From NCBI RefSeq assembly GCF_000143535.2, contig NC_037313.1, positions 193,501 through 257,500 on the forward strand: a stretch of 64,000 bases of DNA, read 5' to 3'. Shown here piece after piece: positions 6,501 through 63,340 of the stretch. Below the pieces are notes generated by a model, which searched no databases, was not told where the DNA came from, and saw nothing but the letters and a program-made list of their open reading frames with translations. This DNA is from Botrytis cinerea B05.10 (taxonomy: Eukaryota; Ascomycota; Leotiomycetes; Helotiales; Sclerotiniaceae). The position numbers and the translations under genes are program-made. Position 1 is the stretch's first letter, and each line of letters starts with the position of its first letter.

Positions 6501-9500
6501 AACCACTTGGGGCTCTTATCACACGTGTATTGTATCGCCTAAGATTCTCTGCAGAACAACGCCCATTCGATACAGTGTCTCTAATCTATGTTCTCCCTCT
6601 CGTCTTCCTAGTACTTCGAGATGGTGGATTTGGAGAAAGCGATGATGCCGATGCCCAACTTGTTCTCGCCCTGGAATTCCTTTCTTTTCATACTGATGCC
6701 TGTTCCGACGTTTTGGTACCTCGGGACGAAGTTCTCTCCACTTTAATTTCGTCGATGCAGACTTATAATCAGCATTACAAGGCAATCAAAGATTGTTTGA
6801 CAGATCTATGCAGATGTATCGCACCAAATATTACTGATAATGAGATCTCAATTCTTGCACAAGGAGCCATTGTTCCACAAGTTGCTGTACGAACCTCGGT
6901 ATTACAGTCAATTAGTGCAGAGATTGATATGAGTGAGCTCGATTTTTCCAATGAAATCTGGTTAGCATGCCATGACGATGTAGAAGAGAATGTTGAGCTT
7001 GGGCGAGAAATCTGGGAGGAAAGTGAATTTAAAATATCTACCGAATCACCATTCCGAATGCTACCATATCTCGAAAGCATGGATAAGCAACTTCGACGAG
7101 CTGCAGCTAGGTCTATCGCCGAGGCTGTAAAATTACAGCCTTCAACGTTCAAGGATGTGCTTAGTCGTCTGCAATCCTCTTATACAGAGTGGGCAAAGCC
7201 TCGAGTTCCCCAGCTTGACGAGTATGGTATGCCCAGGAAGATGGATTTATCGGACCCATGGGAAGCCCGAAATGGAATTGCACTTGCATTCAGAGAACTG
7301 GCTTTAGTTTTTGACGAATCGCTCCTTACTCCGTTCCTCAACTTCTTAATTGAAGGGCCACTTGGTGATAGAAACTCAATTGTTCGAGAAGAAATGGTTG
7401 AGTCTGCCACAGCTATTATAGCTATTCATGGAAAGGACAAAGTGGAAGAATTGATGAAGACTTTTGAACGCACACTCGAGACACCAGACAAAGGCTCCGA
7501 ATTTTCCGATAGAGTAAACGAGGCCGTTATCATCATGTATGGTGCCCTGGCACAACATCTGAAAGCCGGCGATGAACGTGTGCCAAAGGTTGTAGACAGG
7601 CTTCTAGAAACATTAAGTACCCCATCTGAGACTGTACAATATGCCGTGGCTGAGTGCTTGCCACCACTCGTTCGTGCATCCAAGGAGAATACTTTGGACT
7701 ACATCCAATTAGTTCTCGACAGACTGTTCAATTCGAAGAAATATGCCGGTCGACGTGGTGCAGCATATGGTCTTGCAGGTCTTGTCAATGGAAAAGGAAT
7801 CTCCGCTCTACGAGAATACAGAATCATGCTTACACTGAAAGGTGCGATCGACAATAAAAAGGATGTCAATCACCGAGAAGGAGCTCTATTAGCTTATGAA
7901 CTTCTCTCCATGATTCTCGGTCGTATATTTGAGCCTTACGTCATTCAAATTGTTCCTCAACTGCTCTCAAGCTTCGGTGACTCAAGCGCAGATGTTCGTG
8001 AAGGTTGTTTGGCAGCAGCAAAAGTGTGCTTTGCAAGCCTGAGCTCTTATGGAGTAAAACAAATTTTGCCAACACTACTTGATGGTCTTGATGACGACCA
8101 ATGGCGAAGTAAGAAGGGTGCTTGTGATCTCCTAGGTGCAATGGCGTATCTTGATCCGCAACAACTTGCCCAGAGTCTTCCCGAGATTATTCCACCCTTG
8201 ACGGGTGTATTGAATGACAGTCACAAAGAGGTCCGTCTTGCTGCCAATCGCAGTTTGAAGCGCTTCGGAGAAGTTATCAACAACCCTGAGATCAAGAGCC
8301 TTGTCGATGTCCTTCTCAAGGCTCTCAGTGATCCTACTAAGTACACGGATAATGCATTGGACTCGCTCATCAAGGTGTCTTTCGTTCATTATCTTGACGC
8401 ACCTTCCCTTGCTCTCGTTGTTCGTATTCTTGAGAGAGGTTTGGGTGATAGATCGGCAACCAAACGAAAGTCTGCCCAGGTTATTGGTAGTCTTGCTCAT
8501 TTAACAGAGAGAAAGGATCTTGTATCGCATCTTCCAATCTTAGTTGCTGGTTTGAAAATTGCAGTTGTTGACCCCGTACCAACTACTCGTGCAACTGCAT
8601 CCAAAGCTCTTGGTTCTCTCATCGAGAAATTGGGAGAAGACGCTCTTCCGGATCTTATTCCAGGTCTCATGCAAACACTCAAATCAGATACTGGAGCCGG
8701 TGACCGACTGGGATCTGCACAGGCACTCAGTGAAGTTCTTGCAGGACTGGGTACAAGCCGCCTCGAGGACACTCTTCCAACAATTCTTCAAAATGTTGCT
8801 TCATCCAAACCTTCCGTTCGGGAAGGCTTCATGTCGCTCTTCATATTCTTGCCCGTATGTTTCGGAAACAGTTTCGCCAACTACCTTAGTAAGATTATTC
8901 CACCTATTCTCTCTGGTCTGGCGGACGACGTTGAATCAATTCGTGACACGTCTTTGAGAGCTGGTCGTCTTCTTGTCAAGAATTTCGCCACGAGAGCTAT
9001 TGATCTTTTGCTGCCAGAATTGGAGCGAGGTCTAGCAGACGACAATTACAGAATTCGACTCAGTTCCGTCGAATTGGTTGGTGATCTTTTGTTCAACCTT
9101 ACTGGTATTAGTGCGAATACAGAACAGGATGAGGTCGAAGAAGGTGCGCAAGAAGCTGGTGCATCGTTGCTCGAGGTACTTGGTGAGGAGAAGCGTAACA
9201 AGGTATTATCCTCGTTGTACATTTGCAGATGTGATACTTCTGGCTTGGTTCGAACAGCCGCTGTCAATGTTTGGAAAGCTCTTGTCGCGAGTCCCAGAAC
9301 ACTTAAGGAGCTTATTCCTACGCTCACTCAACTCATTATCCGACGATTGGGAAGCTCCAACATGGAGCAGAAGGTTATTGCAGGTAATGCACTTGGTGAA
9401 TTGATTCGCAAAGCAGGTGATGGAGTTCTCTCAACCCTGCTACCCACCTTGGAGGATGGCTTGCAAAATTCTACAGATACAGATGCTAAGCAAGGAATAT

Positions 9501-55945: not shown

Positions 55946-58606
55946 GGTGAAAGTATAGATGTTTAATAGTTAATGTTTGGTGTGGGATAATAGTTTTTTG
56001 ACAGTGGAGATGAAGTGTCTTTCTATACAACGAAATGGGTTGAAATGTGAGATATAAACTCCATCCTAATATCTCTCATCACAATATATACACCACGAAC
56101 CAACAAACCAAGTGGATGCCCTGAGCTAAAAAGTGTCAACTTTTTTCTAAACTCGATAATTGCCCACGTGAGGAGGCCAATTAAGTGGACGGTGAAATAT
56201 CCAGATGAGACCCTCATGGTAGGTGCTATGAACTTGGTCTCAACCGACCTCGCCGGCCCGGGGTGTACGTATTTTCTGATATCGATGAATTGATGCTATT
56301 AATAGTAGGGCCTTCGAAAATAGATGTATTTTCAACAACAAAGCATACAGAATGTTCAAAATCTTTAGAGATATGACAATCAAGCTCTATTACAAGCATT
56401 GAATCTTTTCAATATGGACAATAGTCCAAATCATTGAAAGCCCTGATTAATTGCCCGTGTTGAATGCACGAGCTTGCGCAAATGATTCTTGCCTTTTCCA
56501 TGGACTATGGCCCCTCAGTGCTAATCGAAGATGTTCAATATTGATTTAACAGCTCATTTTTGCCAAACTACAGGTGATCAGTTGAAAAAATACACTGATG
56601 AGTTGCCGGGTATAAATCGCCAACACCTGTATCAATGCAACTTTGGAGGCCATCAAGTGGCCAGGATCTGTATGATTCACTTGTATTTTTTTTTTTTCTT
56701 TTCAAACATGTATACGGTCCTCTACATTAACCCTGGATAATACTTTATAACTCTATGACATCTTATCTTAAATGTTCTCCGGTTATTGATTGTTGGCCTC
56801 TGAGTGTCTTACCAGAAGGAATCCAGTTTACATTCGGGGTCTGACCAGCAGTACTACTAACAAGGCCATTTTATGGTACGCACTAAGCGTGAGTTGATGT
56901 TTTAATTATCGGCCAATTGAATGGTAGTCTTTCATGCATAAACGGCCTATAATAGGCCGCTTTGTATCTGATATGCCACATTCTACCCCTATATTGAGGT
57001 CAGCGAATTCGAAATTCGAGCCTACGTGTTAGTACTGACCACAAATTTCCGAATACAATTTGTATTTCAAGAAGCCGATGAGACGAAACGCATATCTTTC
57101 TTCTTTTATATCAAATTCGAATTGCCACTTTTGGGTTTTTATCAAATTGCTATTTTCAGCATACTCTGTCAGAAGATTTTGTAGAGCTTTTACTCCACTT
57201 TTGACACACATTCCTGGCTTAGGATACTATAGTGATAAATAAACTGAGTAGACAATAGGAGAATATATAAGCGAAGAGGTTAATAGTCTAGACGTATAGT
57301 AGAACCTGTTTATAGTGATATTTTTTTACTGAATTCGTTGATTTTTGAGTAGCTATAGTAACATTCCTCTATATATTGATATAGTGGATTCGTAGAAGCA
57401 AACGAAGTGGAAATGTACTCCATGTATTATGTAATCATATATCTCCATAGCAGGCCATTTTCATATTTGCAGATTCATAAAACCCCTTCTGATTGGTCAT
57501 AAGTAATGTGCCGACGCTAGGGCAGGGTTGTTCCGGCCGATGAGGAGGGAGGCTAAATTGTTATAGAACAATTTCAATCCAGTACATACATAACCTTTTG
57601 AAGATATATAAACTAATTATTAAAGATATATTCTATTAGAGTTTATTATACGCTTTTCAAATATATTATTCTTATTACTTTCTAAGCTCTAATTGTAAAG
57701 TTATATATCAATAACTTGTAGATATCTCACTATAAATCTAACCAGTCATCAGGTCGAAATCTCAATATTCTTGATTAGTAAGCAGTCAGGTTATGTAAGC
57801 GAGAATTAGAAAGAGAATTAGGAAGAGAATTAGGAAGAGAATTAGGAAGAGAATTAGGAAGAGAATTAGGAAGAGAATTAGGAAGAGAATTAGGAAGAGA
57901 ATTAGGAAGAGAATTAGAAAGGGAATTAGAAAAGAGAATAAGAGAAGATAATAAGAGAAGAGAATAAGAAAGAGAATAAGAAAGAGAATAAGAAAGAGAG
58001 TTAGAAAGAGAGTTAGAAAGAGAGTTAGAAAGAGAGTTAGAAAGAGATTTATGACATATATTGCTATATATTTTAACCATATCAAATAACTAGATTATTA
58101 GAAATAGTATAAATATTCTTTAACTACTATCTGACTATCGTATAACAGTCACTGCCATCCATCGTGATTCTATTGTTTTAACACAACCCTCTAGAAGAAC
58201 TTCTTTTTTTGAATTTCCATATAGATCAGAATTCGTATGATACAGATTGCTCTAACAATTAGTTATACGATATCGTAGGATCTACAGTAGATTCTAATAT
58301 ATCTGGCACAACATCGAAGGGCGCTGTAACATCTATTATATACCCTTTAGCTAGCTTGTTTAATTTATGTATAATTCAATAGAAACCAGATAATGTCCAA
58401 CCCTGCGTAGCGAGACACCCTGTGTGCCGAGACAGACCAGCAAAATTGGATGAATTTCGAGATAAATATATTGCTAAATTAAGAGAAATAGTGTGAAGAA
58501 TACATTACGAAGTCTGAATATGAACATTTTTTATTGTTGTTGGCTTCAAAGAGATAACTGCTCTATTTATCTGATAATTAGGTAAAGTTATATTATTCTC
58601 TTTCTA
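55946..58606. other. AT-rich, repeat-bearing intergenic region
   Basis: 2.7 kb without a supported gene, very AT-rich from about 57000 on. It includes a minisatellite at 57801-58045 and, near 57300-57400, a TAGTAGAACCTGTTTATAGTG segment like the terminal repeat of fungal pogo-like elements. The composition suggests repeat decay. Confidence 0.6.
57801..58045. repeat. 12-bp minisatellite (GAATTAGGAAGA-type)
   Basis: About 20 units of a 12-bp purine-rich repeat. The first half is homogeneous GAATTAGGAAGA; later units drift to GAATAAGAAAGA and GAGTTAGAAAGA. It is open in several frames because 12 is divisible by three; the Leu/Ser/Asn-rich minus-strand translations are artefacts. Confidence 0.92.
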
Positions 58607-61600
58607 CTAAGGATCAATCTCTAGTTCATTTATCTGCCATTCAAGTAATATTGCACGGGAAGACAATGTATTAGGGTGATTAGTACCTATAATCCTAGTC
58701 AGTAATAATACACATTCTTCCATAAGATTAAGGGCCTCTTCATCTCGGCCAAGTCCCTTCCATGTGAGGGCAAGATTATTCATGCTGGTCAGCGTGTCTG
58801 GATGCTCCTGCCCTAACACTCTCAAACTCGTCTCCATCACTTGCACCTCCAAGTCTTCGGCCTCCTTCCAGCGTCCCTGATTCCGGTATGTCGAAGCCAA
58901 GTTGGCCATGCTGGTCAGCGTGGAAGGATGCTCCTGCCCTAACACCCTCTTTCTCGTCTCCATCACTTGCACCTCCAAGTCTTCGGCCTCCTTCCAGCGT
59001 CCCTGATTCCGGTATGTCGAAGCCAAGTTGGCTATGCTGGTCAGTGTGTTTGGATGCTCCTGCCCTAACACCTTCAAACTCGTCTCCATCACGTATATGT
59101 TCAAGTCTTCGGCCTCCTTCCAGCGTCCCTGATTCCGGTATGTCGAAGCCAAGTTGGCCATGCTGGTCAGCGTGGAAGGATGCTCCTGCCCTAACACCTT
59201 CAAACTCGTCTCCATCACTTGCACCTCCAAGTCTTCGGCCTCCTTCCAGCGTCCCTGATTCCGGTATGTCGAAGCCAAGTTGGCCATGCTGGTCAGCGTG
59301 GAAGGATGCTCCTGCCCTAACACCTTCAAACTCGTCTCCATCACTTGCACCTCCAAGTCTTCGGCCTCCTTCCAGCGTCCCTGATTCCGGTATGTCGAAG
59401 CCAAGTTGGCTATGCTGGTCAGTGTGTCTGGATGCTCCTGCCCTAACACCTTCAAACTCGTCTCCATCACTTGCACGTCCAAGTCTTCGGCCTCCTTCCA
59501 GCGTCCCTGATTCCGGTATGTCGAAGCCAAGTTGGCCATGCTGGTCAGCGTGGAAGGATGCTCCTGCCCTAACACCCTCTTTCTCGTCTCCATCACTTGC
59601 ACCTCCAAGTCTTCGGCCTCCTTCCAGCGTCCCTGATTCCGGTATGTCGAAGCCAAGTTGGCTATGCTGGTCAGCGTGGAAGGATGCTCCTGCCCTAACA
59701 CCCTCTTTCTCGTCTCCATCACTTGCACGTCCAAGTCTTCGGCCTCCTTCCAGCGTCCCTGATTCCAAAATGTCGAAGCCAAGTTGGCCATACTGATCAG
59801 TGTGTCTGGATGCTCCTGCCCTAACACCCTCTTTCTCGTCTCCATCACTTGCACCTCCAAGTCTTCGGCCTCCTTCCAGCGTCCCTGATTCCGGTATGTC
59901 GAAGCCAAGTTGGCTATGCTGGTCAGTGTGTTTGGATGCTCCTGCCCTAACACCTTCAAACTCGTCTCCATCACGTATATGTTCAAGTCTTCGGCCTCCT
60001 TCCAGCGTCCCTGATTCCGGTATGTCGAAGCCAAGTTGGCCATGCTGGTCAGCGTGGAAGGATGCTCCTGCCCTAACACCTTCAAACTCGTCTCCATCAC
60101 TTGCACCTCCAAGTCTTCGGCCTCCTTCCAGCGTCCCTGATTCCGGTATGTCGAAGCCAAGTTGGCTATGCTGGTCAGTGTGTTTGGATGCTCCTGCCCT
60201 AACACCTTCAAACTCGTCTCCATCACGTATATGTTCAAGTCTTCGGCCTCCTTCCAGCGTCCCTGATTCCGGTATGTCGAAGCCAAGTTGGCCATGCTGG
60301 TCAGCGTGGAAGGATGCTCCTGCCCTAACACCCTCTTTCTCGTCTCCATCACTTGCACCTCCAAGTCTTCGGCCTCCTTCCAGCGTCCCTGATTCCAAAA
60401 TGTCGAAGCCAAGTTGGCTATGCTGGTCAGTGTGTCTGGATGCTCCTGCCCTAACACCTTCAAACTCGTCTCCATCACTTGCACGTCCAAGTCTTCGGCC
60501 TCCTTCCAGCGTCCCTGATTCCGGTATGTCGAAGCCAAGTTGGCCATGCTGGTCAGCGTGGAAGGATGCTCCTGCCCTAACACCCTCTTTCTCGTCTCCA
60601 TCACTTGCACCTCCAAGTCTTCGGCCTCCTTCCAGCGTCCCTGATTCCGGTATGTCGAAGCCAAGTTGGCTATGCTGGTCAGCGTGGAAGGATGCTCCTG
60701 CCCTAACACCCTCTTTCTCGTCTCCATCACTTGCACGTCCAAGTCTTCGGCCTCCTTCCAGCGTCCCTGATTCCAAAATGTCGAAGCCAAGTTGGCCATA
60801 CTGATCAGTGTGTCTGGATGCTCCTGCCCTAACACCCTCTTTCTCGTCTCCATCACTTGCACCTCCAAGTCTTCGGCCTCCTTCCAGCGTCCCTGATTCC
60901 GGTATGTCGAAGCCAAGTTGGCTATGCTGGTCAGCGTGAAAGGATGCTCCTGCCCTAACACCTTCAAACTCGTCTCCATCACTTGCACGTCCAAGTCTTC
61001 GGCCTCCTTCCAGCGTCCCTGATTCCAAAATGTCGAAGCCAAGTTGGCCATGCTGGTCAGCGTGGAAGGATGCTCCTGCCCTAACACCTTCAAACTCGTC
61101 TCCATCACTTGCACCTCCAAGTCTTCGGCCTCCTTCCAGCGTCCCTGATTCCAAAATGTCGAAGCCAAGTTGGCCATGCTGGTCAGTGTGAAAGGATGCT
61201 CCTGTCCGAAAACACTCTTGTGCCTCTCCATTACTTCCACAAACGGTGCCTCAGCCTCATTATATCGTCCATCACTAAGGAGACACTCCCCAAATCTCCG
61301 CGACAGAGCAATCCGGGTTTCTCCATCTTTGCCAGCTTCATCAGACATTAGCGCATAACATACATGTGGCAAATACGTCCTCCATGCAGTTCTATTTTGG
61401 TGGTCATCGTCTGGGAATACTTCCTCTAATCGTATAATCGCCCTTTCGGTCCACTGGGTGATCAAATCATTTTGCTGAAGCCAATTTCTCGTTGCGAGAT
61501 GCACTAGTCGGTGAAGATTAAGAGCTTGGTCTGCTACTCGCTTAATAATAAACGAGTAAGCGTCAAGTGTCCCAATTGCATCTATCTCTTTTTTTCGAGA

Positions 61601-63340
61601 CCTTCCTGCCGGAAGAAGAGACTGGGGAATATCCTTGGGGTCTATACACGCCATAAACGATAGGTAGTCGGCTGCAAGAGGGTCGCGATACCGTATCTGT
61701 TCAAACGAGATGAGCCACGTCGTAGCCACGGGGTTCTTTATATTATCGTATCTCCCGTCGTCTTCAAACTCCTCGCTAAGGAGATCAATAACATCCTCTT
61801 CTTGCTCTACAAGGAGGGATAGATAATCCGCGAACGCAATCCCATTCTCGTTAATATATGCTGCTGCCTGAACAATAGCAAGCGGAAGGTATGTGAGCTC
61901 TTTTAGTAGGGCCGTTGTATCTGGTCTATTCTTAACCAGATCTGGATCAACTAAACACTTCTGGAGCAGCTGTATCGCTACGTCTTCGCCCATCTCCGGT
62001 ACCTCTACGATATTTTGGTGTGCAAGCTTAACGGCAGTCTTCCTGTCGCGCGTTGTGAAGACGATACATCCTTGCTCACTTCGTGGGAGGCAGTCGATTA
62101 GACGGCCAGATCCTGACCTAGATACGGTGATCCACATATTGACATCGTCAGCATTATCGAAAACTAAGAGCCACCGGCCTGCGCTTTCTTTGCTCAGGTA
62201 ATCTTGCACGAGTTTCTTTGCATCGGCCTTATCCTCGTCCGAGCCGGGGATCTTGAGTTGGCGGGCAACTTCTCGATATGCTTGATGAAGACTTTCTGTA
62301 TTGGTTGCGGGTATCCAGATCACTAAGCAATCCTTATATCTATCCCTTATTCGGTAGACAAGCTCAAGCAACAGCTGGGTCTTGCCTATTCCCCCGAGCC
62401 CTGTGATGGCAACTTTTGTCACTCGACCTCCTGTAAATAGTTTTGCTTCCACCTCGGTAAGCTTCGTTCCACGACCGGTAAAGTTGAGATTTCTGTCGAA
62501 TGGGACAATAAACGAAGCGGTATTATCTATAGAATAGCGTTTAGTATAGTCAAATCAGGTTAGATCTGCCGTACCTTTAAGATCTTTCGCCTCGCTCTCG
62601 TTAGTGGAGAACCCCTTGACTGTCATTTCGAGCCTTTTCAGTGCGGCCTCCTTTCCCTCGCCATAGATTGGTGGCATAGACACCTCGCAGAGGCCTAACA
62701 GGCAGTAAACCAGGTCTTCTTCTTTGGTTGTCTGGCGTTGTGCTACCCATCTTTTCCGCTCAGCGATACTAAAATCAGAGAAAGGATCCCCTCGCAGAGC
62801 CTGAAATGGAATTCGGGTAATCTCATAAATTGGCTTTTCGAGTGACCTTTTGTCACCAAGTAGCTTGCGCTCTCGAGAGAAGAATTCGACTTCCGCTGGA
62901 GCAATAAGTTCTTGAAGTGTCCAGCCTCTAGTAAACCATCTACTACTCCGAAAGGCTACTTCCCACGTGCTCTGGTTTGCTTGGACATATACGTCATCGC
63001 CAGAGGTCGATACATCCGTGAGATATACATAGCATTTCTTCGCATTTCGATACCAGCGGAACATAGAATTAATAGCCTCCGAAAGCTCAGTAAGATTCGA
63101 CTTGTCAATACAACAAGTGTCCACCCAGAAATATCGAAGGCCATCTTTAGCCGCTTGTTCTCCACAAAACTTGATCTTTTCGTAGTCAGACTTGCTTTTC
63201 CCAGTACCACTTATTAGATCTTGATATGTGACCTCTTGATCTGTCCAAGTGTGTGAAAGGATTGCGTAGGGAAGGGTATCATGGGTGGCAACATGGATCA
63301 GGCTGAATTCGCCCGGGCTTTTCATCTCTAAAAGACGCAT
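58607..63340 (-). CDS. HET-NB-ARC-TPR fungal NOD-like receptor, 1,561 aa
   Basis: Exons 62575-63340 and 58607-62526 are joined by a 48-bp intron (phase 1). Residues 1-255 contain a HET domain with its three blocks: YAILSHTW, GLRYFWVDTCCIDK and RSSRWFTRGWTLQELIAP. Residues about 298-560 form an NB-ARC ATPase: P-loop GLGGIGKT (Lys304), Walker B RWLLVFDNADD, FTTRDR sensor and LPLAI motif. A helical region leads to one degenerate repeat and 19 near-identical 42-residue TPR units (698-1495), then a divergent unit and a short C-terminus. HET domains execute cell death in fungal heterokaryon incompatibility, and NB-ARC/NACHT proteins with repeats act as oligomerising switches and sensors. All key motifs are intact and there is no premature stop, so it looks functional. 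Partner and ligand are unknown. Confidence 0.94.
58808..61201 (-). repeat. 19 x 126-bp in-frame TPR repeat array of the NLR
   Basis: Nineteen head-to-tail units of exactly 126 bp (42 codons), each starting at Glu-His-Pro and ending Val-Leu-Gly-Gln. At protein level 31 of 42 positions are invariant. Variation is confined to unit positions 4 (S/F/D/N), 7 (T/I), 9 (M/I), 16-17 (FW/YR), 29-31 (EVQ/DVQ/NIY) and 36-38 (SLK/RKR/SLR). Units 4-6 and 12-14 are identical in protein, 1,008 bp apart. The unit is of the kinesin-light-chain-like TPR type. Other frames also stay open across the array. Confidence 0.96.

Follow-up and report, generated by a model that had tools for sequence, protein, structure and literature searches.

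A gene of Botrytis cinerea B05.10 appears to encode an intracellular NLR of the HET/NB-ARC/TPR kind, whose TPR groove would act as a rapidly re-combining sensor; we put the probability of this reading at about 0.8. That the function of the array is that of a diversifying sensor seems quite likely. The window analysed here is a 64,000-nt stretch of contig NC_037313.1 (positions 193,501-257,500), and the gene lies on its minus strand at 63340-58607.

Gene architecture and the repeat array

The gene model and the features of the array are as follows (window coordinates).

62575..63340, minus strand: exon 1, HET effector domain (Pfam PF06985, E=5.9e-14, residues 25-113), with start codon and motifs placed
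62527..62574, minus strand: predicted intron of 48 nt, GTACGG...TACTAAAC...TATAG; the frame stays open across the join
58607..62526, minus strand: exon 2, with NB-ARC switch, linker, TPR array, C-terminal cap and stop (frames, Pfam)
61925..62464, minus strand: NB-ARC domain (Pfam PF00931, E=1.5e-12), P-loop GLGGIGKT and Walker-B-like LLVFDNAD
58808..61201, minus strand: putative sensor array of 19 near-identical 42-residue TPR units, 13 of them distinct (unit count, TRF, PF13374)
59392..60934, minus strand: envelope of an internal segmental duplication; the stretches 60934-60400 and 59926-59392, each of 535 nt, are identical and lie eight units apart
58682..58807, minus strand: degenerate 20th TPR unit, taken as C-terminal cap (unit alignment; helices in model)

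The joined two-exon frame runs for 1561 residues to a single terminal stop, with the HET, P-loop and Walker-B-like motifs in place. Exon 1 carries the HET motifs YAILSHTW, WVDTCCID and GWTLQEL. Judged from sequence only, the predicted intron has GT..AG ends and a branch-like motif, TACTAAAC. Further downstream of the NB-ARC domain lies HRLVH, which we take to be an MHD-like motif, and a short tail follows the 20th unit before the stop at 58607. For the switch domain, NB-ARC outscores NACHT in Pfam (1.5e-12 versus 5.7e-6). PF13374 (TPR_10) matches 21 stretches of exon 2; the best 25 of 31 Pfam matches have TPR families on top and include no WD40 family. Each NLR feature tested is present, namely the N-terminal HET effector, the STAND domain with its P-loop and the C-terminal superstructure-forming repeats. 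On these predicted features, the gene is almost certainly an intact-looking fungal NLR of the HET/NB-ARC/TPR class. A literature search without the locus tag as query found no paper on this gene.

An earlier note on this DNA had described 19 units of 42 residues, 31 positions of which are invariant and 11 variable. Unit alignment confirms this: each unit is exactly 126 bp long (unit 1, 61201-61076; unit 19, 58933-58808), and TRF returns the same array (58781-61204, period 126, score 4022). Our recount of the residue options likewise agrees throughout. The variable positions are 4, 7, 9, 16, 17, 29, 30, 31, 36, 37 and 38, with S10/D4/N3/F2 at position 4, T17/I2 at 7, M11/I8 at 9, YR14/FW5 at 16-17, EVQ11/DVQ5/NIY3 at 29-31 and SLK10/RKR8/SLR1 at 36-38. 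Mean pairwise identity between units is 0.93 for DNA and 0.883 for amino acids (19 x 42 residues). The latter value lies above the repeat identity of 85% across at least 100 residues that defines highly internally conserved (HiC) repeats in Dyrka et al. 2014, whose program was T-reks (PMC4986451).

Variation, recombination and selection

Homolog sets were the best 120 of 3425, 2217 and 7952 matches (7993-7996 candidates scored in each), from searches that admit proteins 0.55 to 1.75 times the query's length. We ranked unit positions by within-protein entropy in 76 of 172 other proteins, those kept having six or more units and lying above an identity threshold. The resulting order is 17, 29, 36, 4, 7, 18, 35, 33, 10 and 14. 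The first five all fall inside the window's 11 variable positions, and the 11 rank above other positions (Mann-Whitney p=1.7e-4; the compared proteins are related to each other, and this and the other p-values are indicative only). Set overlap between the 11 and the family top ten amounts to five positions (p=0.064).

A later comparison covered 173 proteins with at least 8 units, the window included. From it we kept 81 of 93 newly listed proteins (identity 0.70 or more) and, window aside, 47 of 79 earlier ones (0.75 or more). The 81, which come from the third search only, gave the same ten leading positions, their order slightly changed, with p=8.9e-5 for the 11 positions and a Spearman correlation of 0.95 with the 47 earlier proteins, a replication that is not fully independent because the first set had served to train the unit finder. 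By record names, the third-search set includes Fusarium, Colletotrichum, Penicillium, Talaromyces, Amanita and Mycena, the last two being basidiomycetes; among the rows kept are some metagenomic records and one, P0185, that carries the name of a plant. The same few positions vary in ascomycetes and basidiomycetes, so that the idea of a modular recognition surface in fungal NLRs can be put to a direct test. The earlier note had thought the array unusually sharp. This view is not upheld, since in internal (core) identity it ranks 26th of 173. It is among the longest of those compared in these length-limited searches, as 20 units were detected in three of the 173 proteins, the window among them.

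The earlier note had also described the residue options as mixed in many combinations. A four-gamete test on five cassettes (codons 4-5, 9, 16-17, 29-31 and 36-38; position 7 left out) found all four combinations in 9 of 10 cassette pairs, the exception being 9 with 29-31. This incompatibility bears out the description and requires recombination inside the 126-bp unit. Longer tracts have been copied as well: an exact-run scan found internal duplications of 535 nt at lag 8 and 359 nt at lag 7, which show recent segmental copying. The cassettes themselves are compound, with no intermediates between TACCGG and TTTTGG (codons 16-17) or between GTGCAA and ATATAC (30-31). This agrees better with old variants being shuffled into new orders than with new point mutations.

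Within the window, residues 29-31 of unit n are perfectly linked to residue 9 of unit n+1 (EVQ-M 10/10, DVQ-I 5/5, NIY-I 3/3). As a structural rule this cross-unit coupling was rejected, being absent in 53 other proteins (p=0.36), and we take it as local duplication history. A separate signal concerns residues 16, 17 and 29 of one unit, which co-vary strongly across the family (z 9-18 in 67, 67 and 78 proteins of at least 8 units each, the window excluded) and are perhaps a contact set between helix A and helix B. In the window itself, coupling of 16-17 with 29-31 was not significant (p=0.16).

Selection was measured as pN/pS, as one recombining array does not permit tree-based dN/dS. By count, the earlier note was right that most nucleotide differences replace a residue: of 21 variable nucleotide columns, 15 always do so, 5 never do, being silent in every case, and the effect of 1 varies with its neighbours. 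There is no excess of replacement, however, since whole-array pairwise pN/pS is 0.95, near the neutral expectation. We then split the sites by the ten hypervariable positions as defined from other proteins. At these the window has pS 0 and pN 0.133; elsewhere pN/pS is 0.49, in a class that contains six of the window's own variable positions. Two paralogous arrays on the same contig, counted without their final units (taken to be a cap or a non-TPR stretch), gave 0.99 at hypervariable positions versus 0.24 elsewhere (7 units) and 1.14 versus 0.27 (11 units). The split sets the hypervariable sites apart from a framework under stronger constraint and is by itself no proof of positive selection. 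With 0.95 overall and values near 1 at the paralogs' hypervariable sites, the data are also compatible with relaxed constraint. The paralogous arrays, L031:3781-6357 and L032:5828-8671, are both homogenised TPR arrays of NC_037313.1; one is preceded by a DUF7779 match and the other by a weak NB-ARC match that narrowly misses the cut-off.

How far does copying alone account for the pattern? Of the 42 codons, 28 are free of nucleotide variation even at silent sites and three vary at silent sites only; much of the invariance is therefore recent copying or homogenisation, to which the constraint seen outside the family's hypervariable positions adds. The array might be a neutral, recent tandem amplification by unequal crossing-over, its variants being relics of divergent founders in a protein that is possibly still an NLR. 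An overall pN/pS near 1, the 28 invariant codons that recent copying predicts, the presence of just 13 distinct sequences among 19 units and the long exact duplications all agree with this. We nevertheless consider it unlikely, because the positions that vary most are also the ones that do so in 76 and 81 other arrays and because pN/pS is higher at hypervariable positions than in the framework in three of three arrays (in the window, pS there is 0).

A more far-reaching proposal, which we regard as doubtful, is that HiC TPR arrays share one conserved combinatorial code, the same few positions of each unit reading one segment of an extended peptide. The code positions would be 17, 29, 36, 4 and 7, then 18, 33, 35, 10 and 14; units with old shared residue options would be re-ordered by recombination within and between units, and the arrays would be modular much as TALE or PPR repeats are. 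A weaker part of this proposal involves a second open frame: a shift into it by indels or splicing could turn the sensor into a non-TPR repeat, thereby silencing or re-specifying it.

Relatives and the second frame

Among the best 120 of 2217 matches, the proteins closest to our candidate NLR by the NB-ARC part are from Sclerotinia; Rutstroemia and Botrytis proteins also rank high. The HET and NB-ARC parts (window 63340-61260) show 94-98% identity to Sclerotinia sclerotiorum P0041, P0005 and P0031 and 91-96% to three further Sclerotinia records; average identity between B. cinerea and S. sclerotiorum is given as 83% in PMC3158057. A B. cinerea protein, P0042, is no closer than those of S. sclerotiorum (94.6% in the aligned HET/NB-ARC part); counted by eye it has two core units plus the cap, and the record may be an allele or a paralog. 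The high Sclerotinia identity may possibly reflect transfer, trans-species polymorphism or strong conservation.

Frame +2 of the array is stop-free in 19 of 19 units, within an open stretch at 61250-58776. On synonymous recoding of one unit, this frame is stop-free by chance in 11% of cases, and the homogenised units are not independent of each other. In the paralogous arrays, the second frame is open in none of the 7 units of L031 and none of the 11 of L032. The shifted-frame array (ESGTLEGGRRLGGASDGDE...) occurs, whole or in part, at the C-termini of P0005, P0031, P0041, P0113, P0122, P0123, P0124 and P0126, which are annotated Sclerotinia, Rutstroemia and B. cinerea relatives; six more proteins contain scattered words of it. 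A GTATGT donor-like site lies before the array at 61364 (minus strand), and the gene models of P0113, P0122, P0123 and P0124 enter the shifted frame at the site matching it. Most simply, these recurrent shifted-frame arrays are likely to be gene-model or sequence errors.

The shifted frames of several of these relatives, which decay or gene-model error could produce, are what would speak for a dead or unexpressed gene copy whose array is still open. For the window gene this is very unlikely, given a 1561-residue frame that is open throughout with its HET, P-loop and Walker-B motifs and an array pN/pS of 0.49 outside the hypervariable positions.

Proposed binding face, known systems and surroundings

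We modelled units 12-19 plus the cap from a 35-sequence alignment. The model has a mean pLDDT of 93.4 and is all-helical, with the expected helix pairs (a first model built without an alignment reached pLDDT 66 and was not used). Its best solved matches are the kinesin light chains KLC1/2 (sequence E 1.5e-42), whose chains in the fold search share 27-35% identity with it. Further down the match list, at ranks 40 and 44, are two Podospora anserina structures titled 'nearly identical TPR-like repeats', 4y6c (Foldseek TMt 0.81, rmsd 3.0, identity 38%) and 4y6w (0.80, 3.3 and 39%), which have their fold in common with the window array. They are 229-residue chains, one a Q17M variant, and differ from the window gene in having no HET or NB-ARC part. 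Both reportedly come from work by Marold et al. in 2015.

The earlier note had placed the variable positions at the surface and had named variable sites in the buried core as evidence against a recognition face. The placing has to be given up for positions 9 (M/I) and 16 (Y/F), presumably packing positions 4 and 11 of the canonical TPR, at both of which the substitutions are conservative. Surface exposure was otherwise inferred from peptide contacts of KLC1, whose concave groove is described as binding extended peptides (PMC6214655). We used 15 residues that contact JIP1 or TorsinA peptide, leaving out N469, a further contact named in PMC6214655, because it lies past the non-TPR helix, where the 42-residue register is broken. 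These map to unit positions 7, 10, 11, 14, 15, 17, 18, 22 and 36. Six of the family's top ten are among them (p=0.0025), versus 3 of the window's own 11, no excess over chance (p=0.44). With 9 and 16 at packing positions and three contacts among its 11, the window partly shows what the note had named as counter-evidence. Tests of the entropy profile for a helical face were not significant for helix A (p=0.06) or helix B (p=0.31).

Kinesin light chain is a motor subunit without an NB-ARC or HET domain. That our array is a structural scaffold or the binder of one fixed partner, as in kinesin light chain, is the least probable account. In its favour, kinesin light chains head the sequence and fold matches, and many family database records bear that name. 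Against it stand the HET and NB-ARC domains that make up the remainder of the protein, the 27-35% identity to KLC chains and the homogenised, shuffled units, which one would not expect of a domain with a single fixed partner. Kinesin light chain's own repeats are divergent, and where fungal records bear its name, the repeats have most likely led to a wrong label.

In the re-combining sensor that we favour, the groove of the TPR superhelix would bind a polypeptide. Unequal crossing-over and gene conversion would preserve a uniform framework and at the same time bring a limited stock of old residue cassettes into new combinations, which could quickly change the specificity and length of the groove. 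Once a ligand is bound, the NB-ARC switch would be released and oligomerise, the HET domains would be brought together and cell death would ensue, in allorecognition or against biotic non-self; the steps from ligand to release and cell death draw on general knowledge of NLRs. The earlier proposal of a candidate nonself-recognition locus is a fair one, based on HET, NB-ARC and homogenised TPR parts together with shuffled cassettes and shared hypervariable positions. The locus is a clear target for long-read typing. Fungal incompatibility has been reported to limit mycovirus transmission between isolates, in Podospora and in a plant-pathogenic fungus.

The earlier note had presented the pattern as known from WD40 repeats, but it had already been described for TPRs. 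In the fungal NLR set of Dyrka et al. 2014 (PMC4986451), 21.2% of TPR repeats are reported as highly internally conserved; the paper describes repeat-number polymorphism in Podospora TPR loci and, in one TPR locus, three positively selected positions, all on the concave side. It also discusses a Penicillium protein with 21 TPRs, and one of its tables includes a HET/NB-ARC/TPR protein of B. fuckeliana T4. TPR NLRs are likewise noted for high internal conservation in a 2025 Podospora study by Ament-Velasquez (PMC12222747). Our gene has in common with the HiC TPR NLRs of Dyrka et al. the domain order, TPR_10 units, identity above 85% and few variable sites. It differs from their Podospora TPR loci in its N-terminus, which is HET here and sesB-like, PFD or unknown there (table 4), and strain polymorphism is shown for those loci. 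The gene is therefore of a described HET/NB-ARC/TPR kind, a long, clean example rather than a new system. The HNWD genes of Podospora anserina carry a HET effector and a NACHT domain, and their role in incompatibility is genetically proven. With their NACHT domain and WD40 beta-propeller, they differ from the NB-ARC domain and TPR superhelix found here. As in our gene, a STAND switch is joined in HNWD (het-d, het-e, het-r) to homogenised repeats with few hypervariable codon positions (PMC12222747).

Directly downstream of the NLR gene lies a dispersed repeat (57382-58055); the queried stretch has 66 matches, itself included, in the assembly searched (42.63 Mb, 18 contigs). Inside this repeat, a 12-bp tandem, GAGAATTAGAAA, occupies 57801-58051. 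A search for DUF3435 (Starship mobility) gave 0 matches in this genome and 0 in control genomes as well, and hence says nothing. Nearby is a homogenised ankyrin repeat gene with 17 PF00023 stretches (L030:5538-8900, minus strand; C4 about 273038-276400). A homogenised short-repeat array with 15 stretches of PF23397 (DUF7104) is found at L032:1-2763, minus strand, where long open frames overlap on the other strand. About 7 kb past the window end, an open frame (L029:7190-8179, minus strand) has Tc1/mariner-like DDE transposase motifs, as recognised by eye.
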